Shown here piece by piece: positions 14,985 to 61,910 of a stretch of 64,000 bases of DNA. The notes beneath the pieces are model-generated. The model worked only from the letters and a program-made list of their open reading frames with translations. It did no database searches and had not been told where the DNA came from. The position numbers and the translations under genes are program-made. The number at the start of each line of letters is the position of its first letter. Position 1 is the stretch's first letter. This stretch comes from Brachionus manjavacas. Taxonomy: Eukaryota; Rotifera; Eurotatoria; Ploima; Brachionidae. The DNA lies in NCBI GenBank assembly GCA_019054805.1, contig JAHQIY010000002.1:5580001-5644000 (forward strand). Direction: 5' to 3'.

Positions 14985-16270
14985 GTAATATTGGATCTCT
15001 CAACGGAAATAGAAAAAGAACCCAATACAAATTAATGATCACTGAAAGGACAACCTACAATACTTGAAAAAGAATCAAAATCATCTTGATGAATAATATA
15101 GTCGATTTAACTTAACTTAGCTTTAACTTCCCCAGAGTTGTTTAAGAAATTTATTCGTGAAGGTTCATTAGTTAAGTTTTTTAAGTTATAATCCTCTAAA
15201 AATTTAACAAAACAATTTTCACCAGATTTATGATCCATATTTATATCTCCTATAATTGTAGTTCTATAATTCAAATTATAGGATAATAAAAATTGCTCAA
15301 GATTTTTAATGAAATCAAAATCTGAAAACGATAGTGGTTTGTAACAAAAAAAAGAAAATTTATTTTGTTTAATAGAGCTAACTTCAAAAGATATACCTTC
15401 AAAGTCAGTGTGAAAATGTAAGTTTGTAATTTTCAAACTCTTTTTAACAAGTACAACAATACTTCCCCCATCACTACATCTATCTCGGCACTGTGAATTT
15501 TGAAGCAAAAAACAAAAACAATAATCTTAAAATGAAATAACTTTTTTACTAAAAGTCTAAAAATAGTTCTGCAAAATGTATCAGCTGGTACAAACTTTGT
15601 ACCACCCAAATTTAGTTTCTGCAATAACTCTGCAATTTAATTTTAATGATTTTCTAATACTTTTAGTGCTTTGCAAACTTGCAGAGTTTTTGCAGAAACT
15701 AAATTTGGGTGGTACAAAGTTTGTACCAGCTGATACATTTTGCAGAACTTTTTTTAGACTTTTAGTAAAAAAGTTATTTCATTTTAAGATTATTGTTTTT
15801 GTTTTTTGCTTCAAAATTCACAATGCCATCTATCTCTACGTTTTACAGTATAATTAGGAAAATCAAGAAAAGAATGAGGAAATGAGTATTCTAATTTTGT
15901 TTCATTTAAAGAAATGATATCAAAATACTGAAGCAATAAAATATCATTTATCTCATCTTTCTTAAGAAAAAGCGAATTTATATCTAAATGAAGAATGTTT
16001 AAATTGTTCTAAAAATTTAAACAAAATTTCTTTAACTGATCAAAATAATTTGGGTTAGAAGGAGTATAAAATTTATTTACAAAAAAATCATCACTAAATG
16101 GAAATACTTGATTCAGTAAATAACCTAAAAAAATTTCTTTGTCATTACCCAGATTATTAGCACATAATTTTAAATATTTCTCAAACCATTTTGAAGAAAC
16201 ATATTTTTTAAAACACTTTGGACGAATTAAATTTGGTTTTTCAGACATTATTAAAAAAATATAAAACAAT
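14985..16270 (-). mobile_element. LINE fragment, endonuclease domain, interrupted by a fold-back element
   Basis: On the minus strand from 16269 a nearly intact frame runs through an ORF2 N terminus into an apurinic-type endonuclease: LNILHLDINSLF, YFDIISLNETKLE, RRDRCSDGGSIVVLVKKSL, GDINMDHKSG, IDYIIHQDDF and CPFSDH. One in-frame TAG lies at 16009. The fold-back element at 15487-15827 splits the RRDRCSDGG motif; the frame runs on either side of it with no shift once the insertion and one target copy are ignored. The reverse transcriptase half is missing, so the 3' part was lost by deletion rather than by the usual 5' truncation. Confidence 0.75.
15487..15827. mobile_element. fold-back MITE with 149-bp arms and 9-bp target duplication (MULE-like)
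   Basis: Left arm 15487-15635 and right arm 15679-15827 are near-perfect inverted copies (I see about three mismatches) around a 43-bp loop. The ends are GGCACTGTGAATTTTG and its inverse with one change. ATCTATCTC occurs directly before (15478-15486) and directly after (15828-15836) the element. Nine-base duplications with long inverted arms are typical of Mutator-like (MULE) and Foldback transposons. It has no transposase, so it must have been moved in trans. The intact duplication and matching arms indicate a fairly recent insertion. Confidence 0.88.
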
Positions 16271-47904: not shown

Positions 47905-50167
47905 ATGACTGACGGATTAAAGAAATTATGTGAAGTAAGCTCATTAAGTAGTTCTTGTTTGAAGAATACTAATTTACCAATTGTTAGCTAAATCCCAGAC
48001 CAGACTTTGTGGAGCATAGGCTCAAAATTTGGGATGAACTAATGCAAAAGTACAAAAACGATTTGTCGCTGAAACCAGTTGTTCCGATTAAAGTCTCTCT
48101 GCCAGATGGTAAAGTAATGGATGGTGAGTCATGGCGAACTACGCCGCTACAAATTGCCGAAAAAATAAGCAAAGGATTAGCAGAGAATACGGTAATAGCC
48201 AAAGTAAATGATGAATTATGGGACCTGGAGCGTCCGCTAGAGACAGACTGTAATTTAAAACTTCTTAAATTTGAAGACGAGGAGGGAAAATTCGTTTTCT
48301 GGCACTCGACCGCTCACTTGATGGGCGAGGCCATGGAACTTGCCTACGGTGGATGCTTGTGCTATGGACCTCCGATTGAAAATGGTTTTTACTATGACAT
48401 GTATTTAGAAAACAGACAAGTATCCAGCAATGACTTTGAGGAACTTGAGAAAATAATGAAAAAAGGTGCAAATGAAAAGCAGGCCTTTGAACGACTGGAA
48501 ATTAGCAAAGAAGATCTGCTGCGTCTTTTTGGCGTAATTTATTTAATTTTTTTGATAAAAATAATTTATTTTTCTTATTAAAATTTTGTTTATTTTAGTA
48601 TAACCAATTCAAAGTGAGAATATTGAACGAAAAAGTAAACACTCCTACCACCACTGTTTACCGATGTGGTCCATTAATCGACTTGTGCCGGGGTCCACAC
48701 ATAAGACACACTGGCAAAATCAAAGCTTTCAAGTTGACCAAAAATTCATCGTCGTACTGGGAGGGTGATTCAAACCGCGAAAGTCTACAGCGCATCTACG
48801 GCATCTCGTTTCCGGACTCCAAGCAGCTCAAAGAATGGCAGCATTTTCAAGAAGAAGCAGCCAAAAGAAACCATCGCAAAATTGGAGTTGAACAAGAGTT
48901 GTTCTTTTTCCACGAGTTAAGCCCGGGCAGTTGTTTTTTTTATCCCAAGGGTGCCATCATATACAACAAGTTGGTAGATTTGATCCGCAGTGAATACCGC
49001 AAGAGAGGCTTCCAAGAAGTGATCACACCAAATGTTTACAACTACAAGTTGTGGGTCACTTCGGGACATTGGCAACATTATGCCGAAAATATGTTCCAAT
49101 TCGAAGCTGAAAAAGAAAAATTCGCTCTCAAGCCCATGAACTGTCCTGGTCACTGTCTGATGTTCGGCTCTCGCAACCGATCATGGCGCGAACTTCCGCT
49201 TCGCATGGCCGATTTTGGTGTGCTGCACCGCAATGAACTATCTGGCACTTTGACTGGCTTGACTCGGGTAAGACGCTTCCAGCAGGACGACGCTCACATA
49301 TTCTGCATGCAATCTCAAATAAAAAGCGAAATAACCAGCTGTTTGGAGTTTTTGCAGCACATTTACGGAATTTTTGGTTTTACCTTTGAGCTAAGATTGA
49401 GTACGAGACCGGAAAAATACCTCGGTGAAATCGAAACTTGGAACCAGGCTGAGAAACAATTGGAAGAGGCGTTGAATGAGTTTGATAAAAAATGGACCAT
49501 AAATCCAGGCGATGGTGCCTTTTACGGACCCAAAATAGACATTACCATTCAGGATGCGTTGAGGCGCTCGCATCAATGCGCCACCATTCAACTTGACTTC
49601 CAACTTCCTGAACGCTTTAATCTTCATTACGACGCAGCTGATGAACAAGGCACCAAAGAAAGACCAGTTATTATACACAGAGCTATCTTAGGCTCCGTTG
49701 AGAGAATGATTGCTATTTTGACCGAAAGTTTTGGTGGCAAATGGCCATTCTGGTTGTCTCCAAGACAGTGTATTGTATTGACAATTAGTGATAAATTTGA
49801 TGAGTATGCTAGAAAGGTTAGGGATGAAATCTATGCAGCTGGATTTGAATGTGACTATAATGCAGATTCGGGAACTACGCTGAACAAAAAAGTTAGGAAT
49901 GCTCAATTGGATAATTATAATTTTATTCTGGTTATTGGTGAACAAGAAAAATTAGCTAATACTGTTAACGTAAGAACTAGAGATAATAAAGTGCATGGAG
50001 CTGTGTCGATCCAGGAAGCAATTAGACGATTTAGAGTTTTGTCAGAAACCAGAACAAATCATGCAGAAGAAGACTTTGGAAATAGTGGATCTAGTGAAGT
50101 GTCGTCGACTAGCGATGCCAAACCACAACGACCAGTTGAACCATTAGATCAATCTAAATATTGCTAA
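47905..50167 (+). CDS. TARS1: threonyl-tRNA synthetase
   Basis: Charges tRNA-Thr. Exons: 47905-47934, 47988-48533, 48599-50167 (introns 53 and 65 bp); 714 aa, near the human cytosolic 723. Regions in order: N-terminal helix ([16 protein letters not shown]), TGS domain ([14 protein letters not shown]), editing domain with [11 protein letters not shown] and [12 protein letters not shown], zinc-type catalytic core with [13 protein letters not shown] (about 372), motif 2 region [29 protein letters not shown] and motif 3 [17 protein letters not shown], then the anticodon-binding domain ([20 protein letters not shown]). The C terminus has an extra Ser/Asp-rich tail. The frame is open upstream of the ATG to an acceptor-like TTATTATAG at 47794; see the finding on a possible mitochondrial form. 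Confidence 0.96.
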
Positions 50168-52602: not shown

Positions 52603-54550
52603 ATGAAATTCTTACTTTTTGCGCATTTGATAGTAATAACCTCAATTGTAAATGGACACTTGCACACAAATGAAGAAAATCCGCAATGGAAAATAGACTT
52701 GAGATCCGAATTGGAATCCAAAATACAAACCATGTTCACACATTTCTCCAAACAATACAAAATAATCAAAAATCAACAGTTGAAATTGTTTCTAGACTCG
52801 TTAGGAACAGAAATAAAAAACACAGTTAAGATTCAAGTTGTCCATGATCATGACCATGAACATGAGGACAGCCATGATCACGAACATGATCACAGTCATA
52901 AAGAATCTCCCAACATCAATGTAAACTGTCTAAGGACAAAACTTGATGAAATATTCAATTTTGTCAAATTAAATAATGAAAATAAAACCAATTTTGATCC
53001 AAGCCGCTTTCTTAATAGTTGTCCCTATTTTGCCTATAGTATGGCTTCTTGTTTTTCTCAAAAATTGACTCACAAAATTGAATATAAGAGTAACTTTATT
53101 TTTTTATTTGTTCATTAAAATAAATTTTTATATTTAAGGTATTGTTTCGGCATTTGTATCAGCAATTGTGATAACCATTATTGGTATTTTGTGCTATTTG
53201 GTTGTACCGTCCATTGAATCGGAAAAATTCAAATATTTTTTTCAGTTTTTAGTAGCACTAGCAGTTGGTACTCTTTCAGGAGACAGCTTGTTACATTTAA
53301 TTCCGCATGCATTTATTGACCATGACCATGACCACAAAGAGCACGCTCACGACAGTGCCGAAGTTTATAAAGGATTAGCGGCAGTTGCAGGAATTTATCT
53401 ATTTTTCTTGATAGAAAAAGTCATGATGATTCGAAGAGCAAGAAAAGAAAAGAAAGTAAAAAAAATTTTAATTAAAAAAAAAAATTAATTTTGAATTTTT
53501 AAGCATAAAGAAATAGAAAAGAACCATGATAATAATTTAGAGGTAGCGATTTCATCCGACAAAACAGGCGCAGATCAATCCTATTATATGCTCCATGCAA
53601 ACAAAGACTTAAAATACATTGCTCAATATTTACCAAATAATCCGTGTAATGTTGACATTGAACATCATGATTCAGAGAGCGAAGTTAAACACTTTCATAA
53701 ACACGCATTGAGCACAGATGCTTGTAACTTGGCAACAGCATCCTCTCACGGGTCTTACTGTAGCAGTGATACAGAGAGTAAACTTATTCCACCGGCAGCA
53801 AATCCAAAGTGTTTGTGCACACCTGAAATTGGCTACGCACCAAAAAAATCTCATGGACATGGACACGGACATAGTCATGGTCATTCGCACAAACATCATA
53901 TATACAAGTCAGAAAGAGAAAAGGCTCACCACGATCATCACATAAAACACGAAAAAGAGCTCACTGACATAAAATTAATTGCGTGGATGGTTCTGATGGG
54001 AGATGGCTTGCACAACTTTGCCGACGGATTGGCCATTGGCGTCTCATTCGGCTCCAGTCTGACCACTGGATTCGGCACAGCCATCGCTGTCCTCTGCCAC
54101 GAGCTTCCGCATGAAATCGGCGACTTTGCTGTTCTAAGACGCGCAGGGGTTTCTTTGAAAAAAGCTCTTTTCTTCAATGCAATCAGTGGTATACTTTGTA
54201 TGTTCGGAGTTCTTGTTGGTCTGTTAATTGGTGGTTTTGTTTTTTTTACGAATTTGTCCTATATGTTTATTGCCGGAACTTTTTTGTACATTTCTTTGGT
54301 TGACATGGTAAGTAATCAATTGTTGGGAAGTAAAAAATTAACTTTTTCGTTTTTAAGATACCCGAGCTATCTGAAAATAAAGAAGATGACAGTATCTCAA
54401 ATTTTTTAATACAGAGTTTGGGAATTTTAATTGGAGTGGGTTAGTAATTATTAAAAAATGTAATTATTTTATTTAATATCCTTTTTTTAAGGTGTCATGG
54501 CTTTGATTGCAATTTTTGAAAGCGATATTCAACACATGTTTGACCATTAA
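52603..54550 (+). CDS. ZIP metal transporter A (SLC39, LIV-1 type)
   Basis: Divalent-metal importer, probably zinc. Exons: 52603-53089, 53139-53455, 53504-54307, 54358-54439, 54492-54550; 582 aa. A signal peptide (about 1-19) leads into an extracellular domain with a long His/Asp run (VVHDHDHEHED, HDHEHDHSH). Membrane helices start about residue 164. The core has a His-rich cytosolic loop (SHGHGHGHSHGHSHKHH), helix 4 GDGLHNFADGLAIGVSF and helix 5 HELPHEIGDFAVL (about 467), the metal-binding signature of LIV-1 ZIPs. Bases 53876-54234 are the same as an inverted stretch in ZIP B except one base. It converges on ZIP B, with a small minus-strand gene between the tails. The 82-nt penultimate exon is shared in length by all three ZIP genes here. 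Confidence 0.94.
53876..54234 (+). repeat. inverted conversion tract, copy in ZIP A
   Basis: 359 bp that pair with 56393-56751 in reverse orientation. I compared them base by base: a 269-bp perfect run, then one silent difference (54145 A versus T in B), then 89 matching bases. A second shorter matched run covers the end of the next intron and exon start (about 54338-54370). Confidence 0.9.
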
Positions 54551-55107
54551 TCAGTTTAATTAATTAATAATCAAATTCGAATTAAAAATCTCTTTTAATT
54601 AACTATTTTTCTTCACGTTTTGATTTTGAAATTAAGAATTTTTTTATCAAAATTGGAAATAAAACCATTCGTAATAATTTTTTTTCTTAATACCAAAAGA
54701 TAAATTTTTTTAGCCTTAAATACCAAGTCTGAAATGATGGTTGCTTTGATTCTTTTATTGTACAATTCTGCATTATTATGAAAATAATCTTAATAAACTG
54801 ATTCAGATACTGCGAAAATTGCTGACACTTAAATTAGTGCAAAATAGTACAAAAATTAATGGATATTATTTTAAATATAATCAAAATTAATCATTTTTTT
54901 TATTTTTGATAGTGGCAAGGAAACTTCTCGGACCTTCTGTGTTAATTATGAAAAAAAGAGATCTTGTTAGATAATTTATTGAGATTAAAAAAAAAGTTGA
55001 TATTGAGATTTAAAAATCTTTTGGTCTTCTATTTGGATTAGGTGGTTTGATGCCTTTTGTGTGCATGTACCTTAATTAATAGAATAAAATTAATAATAGA
55101 TTCTAAT
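54551..55107. other. intergenic between ZIP A and the small secreted gene
   Basis: 3' flank of ZIP A and of the minus-strand gene. No further signal was recognised. Confidence 0.5.
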
Positions 55108-55485
55108 TCAATAAATAAAATACTCCATAAATTCTGTAAAGAGAGTTATAAATTCCTCCCATCTGCTTTTTTTATCATTTGAATCATTCTCCGAACGTTT
55201 GGACCTAAAAAATTGAATTAAAAATTTTCTACTATAAATATTATCTAAAAATACTTTATTGACAAGGGATTGACAATATCATCCCTAAATTTAAAGAATC
55301 AAAGCATAATTTAAAAATTTTTAAATTTAAAGTTACTTTAAATTTTCAGAGCTTTTTTCAAATGAAAAATTTTCAAGCTCATTTGAACTATCATTTTCTT
55401 TTTTGACACTTAAAGCTGATGCTTGCTGGACAAGAATTGCCAAAACTATTGAAGATAAAATTGTGATTTTCAAAATTCGATTCAT
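55108..55485 (-). CDS. 81-aa secreted precursor, neuropeptide-like, two exons
   Basis: Minus-strand exons 55485-55337 and 55204-55108, with a 132-bp GT-AG intron; joined length 246 nt, frame intact. Residues 1-24 form a signal peptide (MNRILKITILSSIVLAILVQ then QASA). An acidic spacer follows (KKENDSSNELENFSFEK), then the dibasic site SKR at about residue 53 and a 28-residue C-terminal peptide (SENDSNDKKSRWEEFITLF ... EYFIY). Secretory peptides are usually cut after KR, so this could be a peptide hormone precursor. There is no amidation glycine and only one copy. A small secreted protein of other function is possible. I recognise no family. Confidence 0.55.
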
Positions 55486-56070
55486 TTTCTGATCATTATA
55501 AAGAATCTAACTTGAATTTATATCAAATAATTAAATTAAAATTGAGCCTTTTTTAAATGTTCCTTGGCTACCAATTAATTAATTTAAAAAATGATAAAAA
55601 TTAAAATAGCTGATTGATTAAAAATAAATATTAAAATTAAAATTTTATTTTCAAAAAAAAATAACAAGAAAATACTCATAAATTAAACATTTATGACTTT
55701 AAATTGAAAATCTCAGCGGTTAGTTCAAGTGAATGTGAGCTTGAAAGACTGGACAAAACATTTCAGAGAGGTGTTGCCTATTTGATCAGCATCACACTCA
55801 AACCTTTGGTCGGATCACTGGGAGGAATTTTATGGTGTCTTTTTTGACTTGTTTATCTAATTAAAATTGAAACAAAAATTTTAATTTTAAAAAATCACCC
55901 GGCTGTGCTTTTTTTTAATTTTTACAAAATTTAAATCAAATAGAAACTCTCGTTCGGGCGAAAATTAATTATTAAATTAAGTACTAAAAATTTCTATTTT
56001 AACAAATCTATCCCAGCTTAATCCGATTAAACAAAAAATCGAAACAACTATATAATTTTTTTTGAAGTTT
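55486..56070. other. intergenic between the secreted-peptide gene and ZIP B, with coding-like island
   Basis: At about 55690-55845 (+) an open stretch of about 55 codons without a start Met reads SAVSSSECELERLDKTFQRG, then VAYLISITLKPLVGSLGGIL, ending in a stop. Base composition is clearly richer in GC than its surroundings. It could be an exon or a remnant; no partner was found. Otherwise A/T-rich. Confidence 0.4.
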
Positions 56071-58529
56071 TTATTTGCTTTTAAATAAATTGACAATATT
56101 CTCTTCGAAGACGGCAATAGCGAACATAATCCCTTGAATTAAAATCAAAAATGATATTCAAAAAAATTAAAATTGGACTTACCAACTCCAAAGAGTATGC
56201 CAAAACTTTGTATTAAAAAATTTGAGATACTGTCATCTTCTTTATTTTCGGAAAGCTCGGGTATCTTAAAAACGAAAAAGTTAATTAAAAAAAAAGAGTA
56301 GGTCCTTTTTTTGATTTACCATGTCAACTAATGAAATGTATAGAAAAGTTCCAGCTATGAACAAAAACGACCAATTTTTAAAAAAATCAAAGCCACCAAT
56401 TAACAGACCAACAAGAACTCCGAACATACAAAGTATACCACTGATTGCATTGAAGAAAAGAGCTTTTTTCAAAGAAACCCCAGCGCGTCTTAGAACAGCA
56501 AAGTCGCCGATTTCATGCGGAAGCTCGTGGCAGAGGACAGCGATGGCTGTGCCGAATCCAGTGGTCAGACTGGAGCCGAATGAGACGCCAATGGCCAATC
56601 CGTCGGCAAAGTTGTGCAAGCCATCTCCCATCAGAACCATCCACGCAATTAATTTTATGTCAGTGAGCTCTTTTTCGTGTTTTATGTGATGATCGTGGTG
56701 AGCCTTTTCTCTTTCTGACTTGTATATATGATGTTTGTGCGAATGACCATGGCTATGCCCGTGTCCATGTGTGTGACTATGCTTCTTTAACTTTTCCTCG
56801 GAATTAGGTATCTCGCAGCTTTTAGATTCATGTCGGTGCTTGTGCAAATGCTGTCTTTCATTTTCCGAGTCATGATGGTCTATATTTACATCACATGGAT
56901 TGTTTGGCAAATATTGAGAAATGTACTTTAAGTCTTTGTTTGCATGAATGACCAAGCAAGCTGGATCATTTGAATTTTCGAAATTAATTGTGTAAGCATT
57001 GGAAGTTTCGTTTGTTTTTCCAAATAAAGGCTCGACTAAAGTTTTATCATCATCCTTTTCTCTTAAATTGTTGTTTACATTCGCAGCCGAAACATTTTGA
57101 CCAAAATTTTTAGAACTATCTGCAATTTTGTCCTGATAAATCAACTTTTCTGAATTGGCGTCCAACTCGCTCATTCTGTGCTAAAATTTCAAATCAATTT
57201 TTTGCCTAATAATACCATTTTTTAATTAAATAACTAACCCTTTTTTCTTTTCGTGCTCGTCGTATTTGCATAATTCGTTCAATTAAAAAAAATACATATA
57301 TTCCAATAACTGCTCCGAGGCCTTTATAAACCCCGGATGAATGATCATGACTGCCTTCGGAATCGTTTCCATGATCCATAAAGGCCTAAAAATAAAATTA
57401 AAAAAAGATAAGCATGTATTTTTTAATTTGATTCCAAATTTCAAAATTTTCATTTAAAATTTTGTTTTGAATGAAAAATTGAAATCTTTATTTTTATCAT
57501 TATCTGAAATTTTTCGTAAATTAATTATTATTCATTGTAAAGATTTTAAAACAAAACGCAAATCAAGAATTCTACAAATTTGAAAAAAGATAAGAAAAAT
57601 AAGGCAAAAAAGATTATTTAATTTTTAAACTTTTAAAATTGAATTTAGATCGAGAGATCTTGATACTTATCATTCAAAGGTAAACACCAAATTTTGATTT
57701 TGCAACTTACATGTGGTATTAAGTGTAGCAAACTATCACCAGAAAGAGTTCCGACCGCCAAAGCTACCAAAAATTGAAACAAATTGTTGAAGCAATAGGT
57801 GTTGATTGAGGGAACGACTAAATAGCATAAAAGTCCAATAACACTGATTAAAAAGGCCGATAGAAATGCATAAATCCAATCTTAAATTAAAATTAAATAA
57901 AAAAAATTTCAAGCCATACCACTAAAAAAATATTCTAAATACATGACTTATATATTAGAAAATAAAAAAAAAAGCTTGAACCTACTTTCTTGTTTTTCTT
58001 TATCCCAAATGGAATATTTTTTTGGATATTTTTTCAAAGTCGTAAGATTTGTAGTGTTACAAAAACAAAAATCTATGTCGGCCATTATGACGCCAGTTAG
58101 TTTATAAAAATTTTTTTTGTCCAAAATATGATCAGGCGTTTTGCCAAAAATGGCTTCTTTTATTTCTTTAAATTTTTCAATTAAGCATTCAATTTTTTCA
58201 TCATGGTCATGCTCATCATGGCTATGCTCATGCTCATGATCATGGTCATGATCATTGTGACCATGTTCAGCATTTTCTTCGTGAAACATTTTGTGCTTTT
58301 TTTGATCGTTGCTCAGCAGCTCGATTAAATGATCCAAAAACTTTTCCATCTGAGTGTGGTTCATAGATTGACGATCAGTGGAATACTTTCCGAAAAGGCT
58401 GTCTATTTTTGAGAAAAACAGCGAGCTCAGGGCTTCATCTTTTTGAACAGGCATGAACTCATTTTGGTCAGGTCGAACTGTTAGACCCATGAAAAAAAAA
58501 ATAGATAGAGATAAATACAATCGGATCAT
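56071..58529 (-). CDS. ZIP metal transporter B (SLC39, LIV-1 type)
   Basis: Paralog of ZIP A on the opposite strand. Exons: 58529-57986, 57880-57711, 57385-57239, 57180-56320, 56264-56183, 56132-56071; 621 aa. Signal peptide (MIRLYLSLSIFFFMGLTV), His-rich ectodomain (HNDHDHDHEHEHSHDEHDHD), NLFQFLVALAVGTLSGDSLL helix, a longer cytosolic loop than A with Met-Ser-Glu-Leu and Asn-rich segments, then the core helices GDGLHNFADG and HELPHEIGDFAVL. A 325-bp intron at 57710-57386 splits LIPH|AFMD; A and C have no intron there. From the His-rich loop to helix 6 the DNA matches A almost perfectly, though the ectodomains differ strongly. Divergent from ZIP C, 1.6 kb away. Confidence 0.94.
56393..56751 (-). 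repeat. inverted conversion tract, copy in ZIP B
   Basis: Partner of 53876-54234; the inner ends are separated by about 2.16 kb. One mismatch (56482). Flanking sequence differs immediately outside on both sides. Confidence 0.9.
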
Positions 58530-60139: not shown

Positions 60140-61910
60140 ATGATTAAATTTATAATTCCAATCTTAATGTTGATGCTGACATCGCGAGCATCGAGTCAAA
60201 GCAACGCTGAATTAGACTCGATAATTGTAAAATACTCGTCTAACAACAAATTTCAACAGGAAGCTTTTTTTGATAATTTCAAAAAAATACTAAACAAAAC
60301 CTCAGCATTCGAGTGCTTCGAATCAAATTTTCACTTTTTAAATTCAAGTCCAATATCAAACAAACAAGATTTTTTACTAATTAGCTCCATGTTGGTATCA
60401 AAACTGGACCAATGCTACAATGCAAATTTTAGCTTGGTAGAAACAAACATTCCTCATGAAATTACAAATACGACAAGTTTTGTAAATAATTTGTTCAGAA
60501 ATGTATTCGAAAAAACTAAGTCTTTAAAAAAAGAAGGTCAGTCTTGGAAAAAAAAATAAATTTTTTTAAAATTCCTTTTAAAAGCTTTATTTTATTCATT
60601 TGTGTCGGTTGTAATAATTAGTTTTGTTGGAGTTTTATGCATCATAGCTGTTCCTGTTCTTAACAATTTTTGTTTCAATTATCTGTTTCAATTCTTGACT
60701 GCATTGGCTTTGGGTACTCTTACCGGTGATGCCCTACTCCATCTTGTTCCTCACGCATTCATGGTCAGTGGATCTCACAACCACCTAATTCCGCATCAAG
60801 ATAATATTTACAAAGGCCTAGCCATAGTCACCGGAGTTTATTTCTTTTTTTTGATAGAAAATTTAATGAAATTTCACCAATGTCGCAGAGAAAAAGTAAT
60901 TTTCTTTTAAAGAACTTAACTAAATAATTAATTTGAAGTTGTTTAGAATCGTAGACGGAAAGAGTCGAAAAAAAAAATAGTTGAAAATAAAAGAATACAC
61001 AAGCACGAACTTGATAATTTGATTGAGAATCCGAATAAACTGAGCCAAAGATTTAAAAACTCGGTGAAAAGTAAAGCTGAGTCTGAATCAAGTTTTTATG
61101 ACAACGATATAGGCTTACAAGATCAGAACAATTTTACATACCTTAAAAATGTATTTTTTCATTTACTTTTAATTTTAGATCTAAATTTAGTTTAAAAAGA
61201 ATTTAATAAATTCGAACAAAGAGAGAGCTCATGAGCATTCGCATTTGGCAACCAAGACATCTGTCTTGATGATAATACTTGGAGACGCTCTTCATAATTT
61301 TAGTGATGGTCTAGCTATTGGTGTATCATTTTCGTCCAGTATAACTACTGGAGTGGGAACTTCTTTAGCAGTTTTTTTTCATGAATTGCCTCACGAAATC
61401 GGAGATTTTGCAGTATTACGCAAAAATGGATATTCAATGAGAAAAGCCTTGCTCTATAATATTTTGTCAAGTATTCTTTGCTTTGTTGGAGCTCTGATCG
61501 GTCTTTTACTCGGAAGTATTGAAAAATTTTCAAACTGGAGTTTTTTGTTCATAGCTGGATCATTTATTTATATTTCTCTAGTTGACTTAGTAAGCTTTCA
61601 TTAAATTATTAATTAGTCTAAAAAAAAAATTTCCTTAAGATTCCCGAACTAAATGAAAGTAATGATGATGGAAATTTCTTGAAACTTTTATTGCAAAATC
61701 TAGGCATAATCCTCGGTTTTGGTAAATATAAGCATTTTTTCACAATATTTGGCAATAAACACCTTTCTCGTAAGGTTGTTCAATAACCTTTTAAATGCCG
61801 AATATTCTTCAGTTTTCACAAATCAATAATTTAATAATTTTAAATTTTAAGGGTTGATGCTTACTATTGCACTATTCGAACATGATATTGTTGATTTATT
61901 TGGAAAATAA
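60140..61910 (+). CDS. ZIP metal transporter C (SLC39, LIV-1 type, His-poor)
   Basis: Exons: 60140-60536, 60585-60895, 60947-61150, 61191 (or 61200)-61589, 61640-61721, 61852-61910; about 483 aa. Signal peptide (MIKFIIPILMLMLTSRASSQ), a short ectodomain with two or three Cys and few His, then FQFLTALALGTLTGDALLHL, a cytosolic loop that is basic instead of His-rich (RRRKESKKK; only HEHSH before helix 4), GDALHNFSDGLAIGVSF and HELPHEIGDFAVL. The metal-binding signature is complete. The intron at 61151 is only 40 or 49 bp, depending on which of two in-frame acceptors is used. No sign of sequence exchange with A or B. Loss of His loops suggests different metal sensing or turnover. Confidence 0.92.

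Follow-up and report, generated by a model that had tools for sequence, protein, structure and literature searches.

Islands of near-identity in two inverted pairs of ZIP transporter genes of Brachionus manjavacas, very probably left by ectopic gene conversion

Introduction

At the right end of a 64,000-nucleotide stretch of the Brachionus manjavacas genome (contig JAHQIY010000002.1, here C2, positions 5580001–5644000; hereafter the window) lie three genes for ZIP transporters, A and C on the forward strand and B on the reverse strand. Genes A and B share an inverted tract in which all but one of 359 bases are the same, whereas most of their remaining coding sequence is saturated with silent differences, and a second inverted pair of ZIP genes on the same contig, D and E, shows a mosaic of the same kind. 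We are highly confident that these mosaics reflect ectopic (interlocus) gene conversion between linked inverted paralogs. The process as such is known; what is new is its occurrence in the ZIP family (within the literature covered), its persistence where the flanks are saturated, and the presence of two cases in one genome, the assembly of which comprises 114.2 Mb in 61 contigs.

A and B represent an old tail-to-tail duplication of a predicted LIV-1-type ZIP metal transporter. They are convergent, with stop codons approximately 1.5 kb apart, and A, B and C all carry the sequence HELPHE, which conforms to HExPHE, a motif that we take to mark the LIV-1 subfamily of ZIP (SLC39) transporters; D and E carry EEFPHK instead.

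A near-identical tract in genes A and B

The tract in A equals its counterpart on the opposite strand in B at 358 of 359 bases (Table 1). From 53876 to 54144 in A, set against 56751 to 56483 in B, 269 bp run without a difference; the sole mismatch, at 54145 (A/T), exchanges GCA for GCT, both of which encode alanine, and is therefore silent, and beyond it 89 further bases are identical, up to 54234 in A and 56393 in B. The initial annotation had described this match, with its one silent difference and its perfect run, and our comparison confirms it. Within the tract lie the end of the histidine-rich loop, HNFADG (54011–54028), HELPHE (54098–54115) and part of the next helix, and outside it lies the exon for transmembrane helices (TM) 1–3. 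In the ZIP topology that we assume, which is also the source of our helix numbers, HNFADG belongs to TM4 and HELPHE to TM5. Of the histidine-rich loop, which the initial annotation had placed in the tract together with the metal-binding helices, only the C-terminal part is included.

Beyond a diverged segment (54235–54335) there is a second patch, which takes in the final 22 bases of an intron and the beginning of exon 4. Its first part (54336–54368 in A, 56286–56254 in B) is identical over 33 bp, 22 from the intron end and 11 from the next exon, and its second part over 41 bp (54373–54413, 56249–56209), with two mismatches in four bases between the parts, just as had been described. When the tract was compared with the whole 114-Mb genome, two matches were found, A and B themselves (both of the two candidates were scored), and both partners of the tract are accordingly found within one genome.

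Aligned codon by codon, A and B can be compared over 542 codons, 240 of which are identical. The proportions of synonymous and nonsynonymous differences (pS and pN) are 0.02 and 0 in the codons of the tract, and 0.75 and 0.32 in the remaining 422 aligned codons. Before the tract, pS is 0.72 in exon 1, 0.80 in exon 2 and 0.87 in the 5′ part of exon 3; after it, pS is 0.64 in the rest of exon 3, 0.46 in exon 4 and 0.85 in exon 5, the value for exon 4 being intermediate because the second patch falls there. The silent identity of the tract against diverged coding sequence elsewhere, an early claim about this locus, is thus borne out (0.02 against 0.72–0.87 in exons 1, 2 and 5 and in the 5′ part of exon 3), and a uniformly low divergence across both genes is ruled out. 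The longest uninterrupted series of identical codons numbers 89, against a maximum of 19 in 20,000 column shuffles, none of which reached the observed run. With the comparison restricted to degenerate codons for the same amino acid, the series comprises 86 of 336, where 20,000 shuffles gave no more than 33.

Could the metal-binding core simply have been held constant by purifying selection or codon constraint, without any exchange? HNFADG and HELPHE are in the tract, and C has almost the same motifs, HNFSDG and HELPHE, as this idea would have it. However, within the tract C is separated from both A and B by pN 0.31 and pS 0.85–0.86 (0.85 for A), so the A/B core is not frozen by protein constraint. 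Degenerate codons for the same amino acid are identical at 114 of 116 places inside the tract and at 118 of 219 outside, the two silent differences inside being counted because the last codon (54233–54235) extends one base beyond the tract. Moreover, intron sequence is part of the identity in both pairs, and the centre of the tract folds no better than shuffled sequence (z 0.32). We consider this explanation extremely improbable.

Taken by itself the tract would also fit A and B (or D and E) being young duplicates in which only the flanks have evolved fast, an explanation with next to no probability, given that silent sites are saturated on both sides of the tract, that the identical segments lie mid-gene with sharp edges inside exons, and that B has an intron (57386–57710) that is absent from A. 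The mosaic with its saturated flanks instead supports gene conversion over simple recent duplication, as the initial annotation had proposed. Protein constraint and young duplication were rejected, as was RNA-mediated copying, in view of homogenised silent sites and introns next to saturated segments; RNA-mediated copying in particular does not fit because the patches include introns. What is observed is a tract of low divergence between flanks of higher divergence, with edges inside homologous sequence and with silent sites and introns included, as is expected of ectopic conversion. C, the closest outgroup available for orienting the transfer, is distant, with pS by segment of 0.65–0.85 to A and 0.43–0.86 to B.

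A second inverted pair, D and E

A Zip family search of the genome returned 32 matched places, which were grouped into about 16 genes. Among these, D and E are divergent, where A and B are convergent, and their cores are approximately 18.5 kb apart. The D/E core is 297 bp with one difference (3350689–3350393 and 3369204–3369500) and encloses a complete intron of 59 bp that is identical in the two genes, because of which protein selection cannot explain this core. A further perfect run of 124 bp extends from the end of an intron into exon 1b, exon 1a contains runs of 74, 46 and 45 bp, and there are runs of 102 and 36 bp near the 3′ end. In the rest of exon 1b, the TM1–3 exons and exon 3, pS is about 0.46–0.82 in windows or exons; it is 0.75–0.86 just before the core, up to 0.77 just after it and 0.92 in the last 20 codons; in outline, the segments that divide the patches lie at a pS of about 0.6–0.86. 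D/E is a clearer mosaic than A/B. The unconverted exons of A/B and D/E are 70–72% alike.

In both pairs the longest converted tract is the core, in which the HN and HE motifs (HNxxDG and HE(E)xPH) lie, and most of the TM1–3 exon is unconverted. These facts would suit a role for selection that favours exchange, with a uniform transport core maintained and the ectodomain and loop left to diverge (domain-limited concerted evolution), a proposal that adds to gene conversion. We regard it as unlikely. The core is not the sole target, because parts of the N-terminal exons of D/E are homogenised too, as is the 3′ stretch, but the conserved TM1–3 exon is not; this is the pattern expected if tracts land wherever identity allows, and two pairs are too few for such a claim.

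The existence of D/E also bears on whether the A/B tract is an artefact of assembly or polishing, in which one copy was overwritten by the consensus of the other. Near-identical sequence at short spacing is a weak point of short-read polishing, the tract copies are about 2.2 kb apart, and the analysis covered the assembled sequence. Nevertheless an artefact is very unlikely, since another ZIP pair elsewhere on the contig has the same kind of mosaic, the mosaic in both pairs consists of several distinct patches set apart by private differences, and sequence that is 70% similar should not be brought to identity by polishing. In addition, the length of the contig (9.9 Mb, in an assembly of 61) suggests that long reads cross the locus.

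Other gene pairs in the same genome

No near-identical tract was found between B and C (inverted neighbours), between A and C (same strand) or in a convergent pair on C6 (L036), where the best DNA match was just 52 bp at 83%. Two dispersed ZIP pairs, one on the same contig and 1.6 Mb apart (L040/L041), the other on different contigs (L044/L045), are approximately 70–71% alike over 570 bp and 607 bp, respectively, a level close to the 70–72% of the unconverted exons of A/B and D/E. Neither contains a long tract of near-identity, the best short match being one of 57 bp at 89% in L040/L041. Of the four inverted neighbour pairs of ZIP genes observed, A/B and D/E are homogenised, and B/C and the C6 pair are not. 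Together these few pairs indicate a tendency, and only that, for homogenisation to occur where genes are both close to each other and sufficiently identical.

At the 3′ end, 26 of 37 degenerate codons for the same amino acid are identical between B and C, compared with 51 of 97 upstream, the corresponding values for C and A being 18 of 34 and 28 of 75. These small numbers may perhaps hint at an older B–C exchange, which we raise tentatively and do not claim. In this 3′ region B and C resemble each other more than A and C do, and B 56316–56438 and C 61471–61593 form an inverted match (71% of 123 bp).

Near-identity in this genome is not confined to inverted pairs, because two HSP70 genes on the same strand, 15 kb apart, are 99.3% identical over 1734 bp. 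Past one end of this stretch there are only short, weaker matches, and the open frames encode 560 and 665 amino acids, one copy being shorter. Like A/B, this pair has a near-identical paralogous stretch; unlike A/B, the copies are in the same orientation and most of the coding region is alike. Either conversion or young duplication could account for it.

Third-position GC content of the tract centre

In a window with a GC content of 27.4%, the 62 codons at the centre of the A/B tract stand out in their GC content at third codon positions (GC3), which is 0.58, compared with 0.27–0.36 in both arms of the tract, 0.22 in the matching region of C and 0.16–0.31 in 13 other ZIP genes (two of which rest on 26 and 15 aligned codons, a further locus, L046, having no match there). 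Codons ending in G or C make up 37 of 62 in the centre against 160 of 520 in the rest of A (p 1.3e-5) and 183 of 559 in the rest of B (p 6.5e-5), the segment having been chosen after looking at the data. At third positions of shared amino acids in the centre, 17 differences from C to A/B are towards GC and 5 towards AT, compared with 15 and 20 from C to A upstream (Fisher p 0.014). The hump is suggestive of older rounds of GC-biased repair, followed by a later and wider event. The proposal that conversion was repeated, made when the locus was first described, receives moderate support from the two patches in A/B, the several in D/E and the rise in GC3 that is restricted to the central part of the A/B tract, and the number of events is not fixed by one genome.

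Several observations weigh against these interpretations. Inverted neighbours are not always homogenised, as B/C and the C6 pair demonstrate, and the evidence comes from one genome only. As to the hump, upstream differences from C to B are 20 towards GC and 16 towards AT, the downstream GC/AT differences are 7/5 for A and 5/1 for B, D/E have no hump (GC3 0.29 and 0.27), and 2 of 28 other open reading frames (ORFs) reach a GC3 of 0.60 over 62 codons. These 28 are the 5 of at least 200 amino acids in the window and 23 of at least 150 amino acids in 12 of 14 loci, some of which are ZIP exons; three ORFs of A/B were left out.

The idea that the centre of the tract harbours a structured RNA element was considered as well and is unsupported, the folding energy there being that of shuffled sequence (the z of 0.32 given above) and no Rfam family reaching the gathering score within the window. 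As an observation in its own right, 48599–50164 contains a class II tRNA synthetase gene (Pfam tRNA-synt_2b, HGTP_anticodon and tRNA_SAD), by inference for a threonyl-like enzyme, with a local GC3 of 0.60 in an AT-rich region.

Proposed mechanism and known systems

We propose that one copy would suffer a break and that homologous repair would then use the inverted neighbour, conserved coding sequence retaining enough exact DNA identity for strand invasion, with the spread stopped by diverged flanks. At least one tract of approximately 360 bp was very probably copied recently between A and B, and probably the second short patch too. Each conversion event would refresh the identity, so that the island may renew itself, and earlier rounds of GC-biased repair might have lifted the GC3 of the centre.

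It is conceivable, though quite unlikely, that the inverted tracts are crossover sites as well, maintaining a switchable pair of chimeric metal transporters by way of inversions that are hypothetical. If so, crossing over within the A/B tract would flip the segment 54235–56392, so that the two convergent genes trade their 3′ exons, and within the D/E core it would flip approximately 18.5 kb, with a trade of the 5′ parts. Ectodomains and C-terminal parts would then be recombined about a core that both genes share.

Gene conversion between linked inverted paralogs has precedents. According to a review on Drosophila, the palindromic Hsp70 and Amylase gene pairs undergo ectopic gene conversion (PMC3924832), and like A/B they are closely linked inverted paralogs held alike by conversion; in A/B and D/E, unlike those pairs, only islands are alike and other synonymous sites are saturated. 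The same text describes conversion tracts of Drosophila duplicates as generally richer in GC than their flanks, with no higher GC reported for converted than for unconverted members of one family (PMC3924832), whereas GC relative to unconverted members is higher in A/B, though not in D/E. For the HMA4 metal-pump genes of Arabidopsis halleri, recurrent ectopic conversion is described among linked coding sequences, and the same paper refers to its prevalence among duplicates more than 95% identical (PMC3749932). HMA4 resembles A/B in that linked metal-transporter copies are converted, but it is a tandemly arranged P-type ATPase with 99–99.3% identity and population data, while A/B and D/E are approximately 70% alike in unconverted exons and are known from a single genome. 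The mmr-b gene of the Brachionus plicatilis complex differs from A/B in that within-gene tandem repeats of a mate-recognition protein are concerned (PMC3495898). No report of conversion between ZIP paralogs was found, by title, among the matches listed, in a coverage that leaves out most subscription journals; in the accessible parts, SLC39A14 and gene conversion are separate topics in PMC8664490, and a ZRT1 paper uses conversion in another sense only (PMC3618353).

In A/B and D/E, conversion has continued although synonymous sites elsewhere in the genes are saturated, and it has done so twice in one family of one genome, which provides a testable case of conversion islands surviving within genes that have diverged outside them. 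Trees and dating call for caution as well: from the divergences, the core alone is expected to make A/B and D/E look young and the flanks to make them look old.

Genes of the locus and minor observations

The exon models of A and B have GT/AG introns and frames open from ATG to stop (Table 1). The Pfam Zip domain (PF02535, cut-off 35.1 bits) is matched by A with 232.5 bits (E 9.7e-69), by B with 262.1 bits (E 9.7e-78) and by C with 230.2 bits (E 4.9e-68), and in a structure search with B the solved relatives were putative membrane proteins and BbZIP (5tsa and others; best E 5e-10). The B intron at 57710–57386 is absent from C as well as from A; it is probably ancestral and probably lost in A and C, because D and E have one at the corresponding position (following HLIPQ).

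Table 1. Coordinates of the features discussed, given as positions in the window or, where a contig is named, on that contig.
Feature	Position	Strand	Description
Near-identical tract in A	53876–54234	+	358/359 bases equal to 56393–56751 on the opposite strand
Near-identical tract in B	56393–56751	-	Counterpart of A 53876–54234
Second patch in A	54336–54413	+	Last 22 intron bases and exon 4 start; 33 bp + 41 bp
Second patch in B	56209–56286	-	Counterpart of A 54336–54413
GC-rich tract centre	53960–54145 (A); 56482–56667 (B)	+ (A)	62 codons, GC3 0.58
ZIP gene A	52603–54550	+	582 amino acids; exons 52603–53089, 53139–53455, 53504–54307, 54358–54439, 54492–54550
ZIP gene B	58529–56071	-	621 amino acids; exons 58529–57986, 57880–57711, 57385–57239, 57180–56320, 56264–56183, 56132–56071
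ZIP gene C	60140–61910	+	483 amino acids; exons 60140–60536, 60585–60895, 60947–61150, 61191–61589, 61640–61721, 61852–61910
A/B spacer	54551–56070		Only short AT-rich matches observed inside
ZIP gene D (L033)	C2:3351861–3350083	-	Inverted partner of E
ZIP gene E (L035)	C2:3366199–3369810	+	Inverted partner of D
HSP70 pair	C5:4759863–4761443 (L047); C5:4776460–4778280 (L048)	same strand	15 kb apart

Within the A/B spacer, on the reverse strand at 55333–55485, there is an open frame of 50 amino acids starting MNRILKITILSSIVLAILVQQASALS, which resembles the signal peptide of a short secreted protein. The pattern (TTAGGG)5 had 22 matches, some of them within the first 66 kb of C6, C8, C14, C15, C19 and C30, whereas a bdelloid spliced-leader sequence had none when up to 2 mismatches were allowed. 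Elsewhere in the window, 15487–15827 is a near-palindrome, 90% identical to its own reverse complement across 347 aligned positions, and is perhaps a foldback element.

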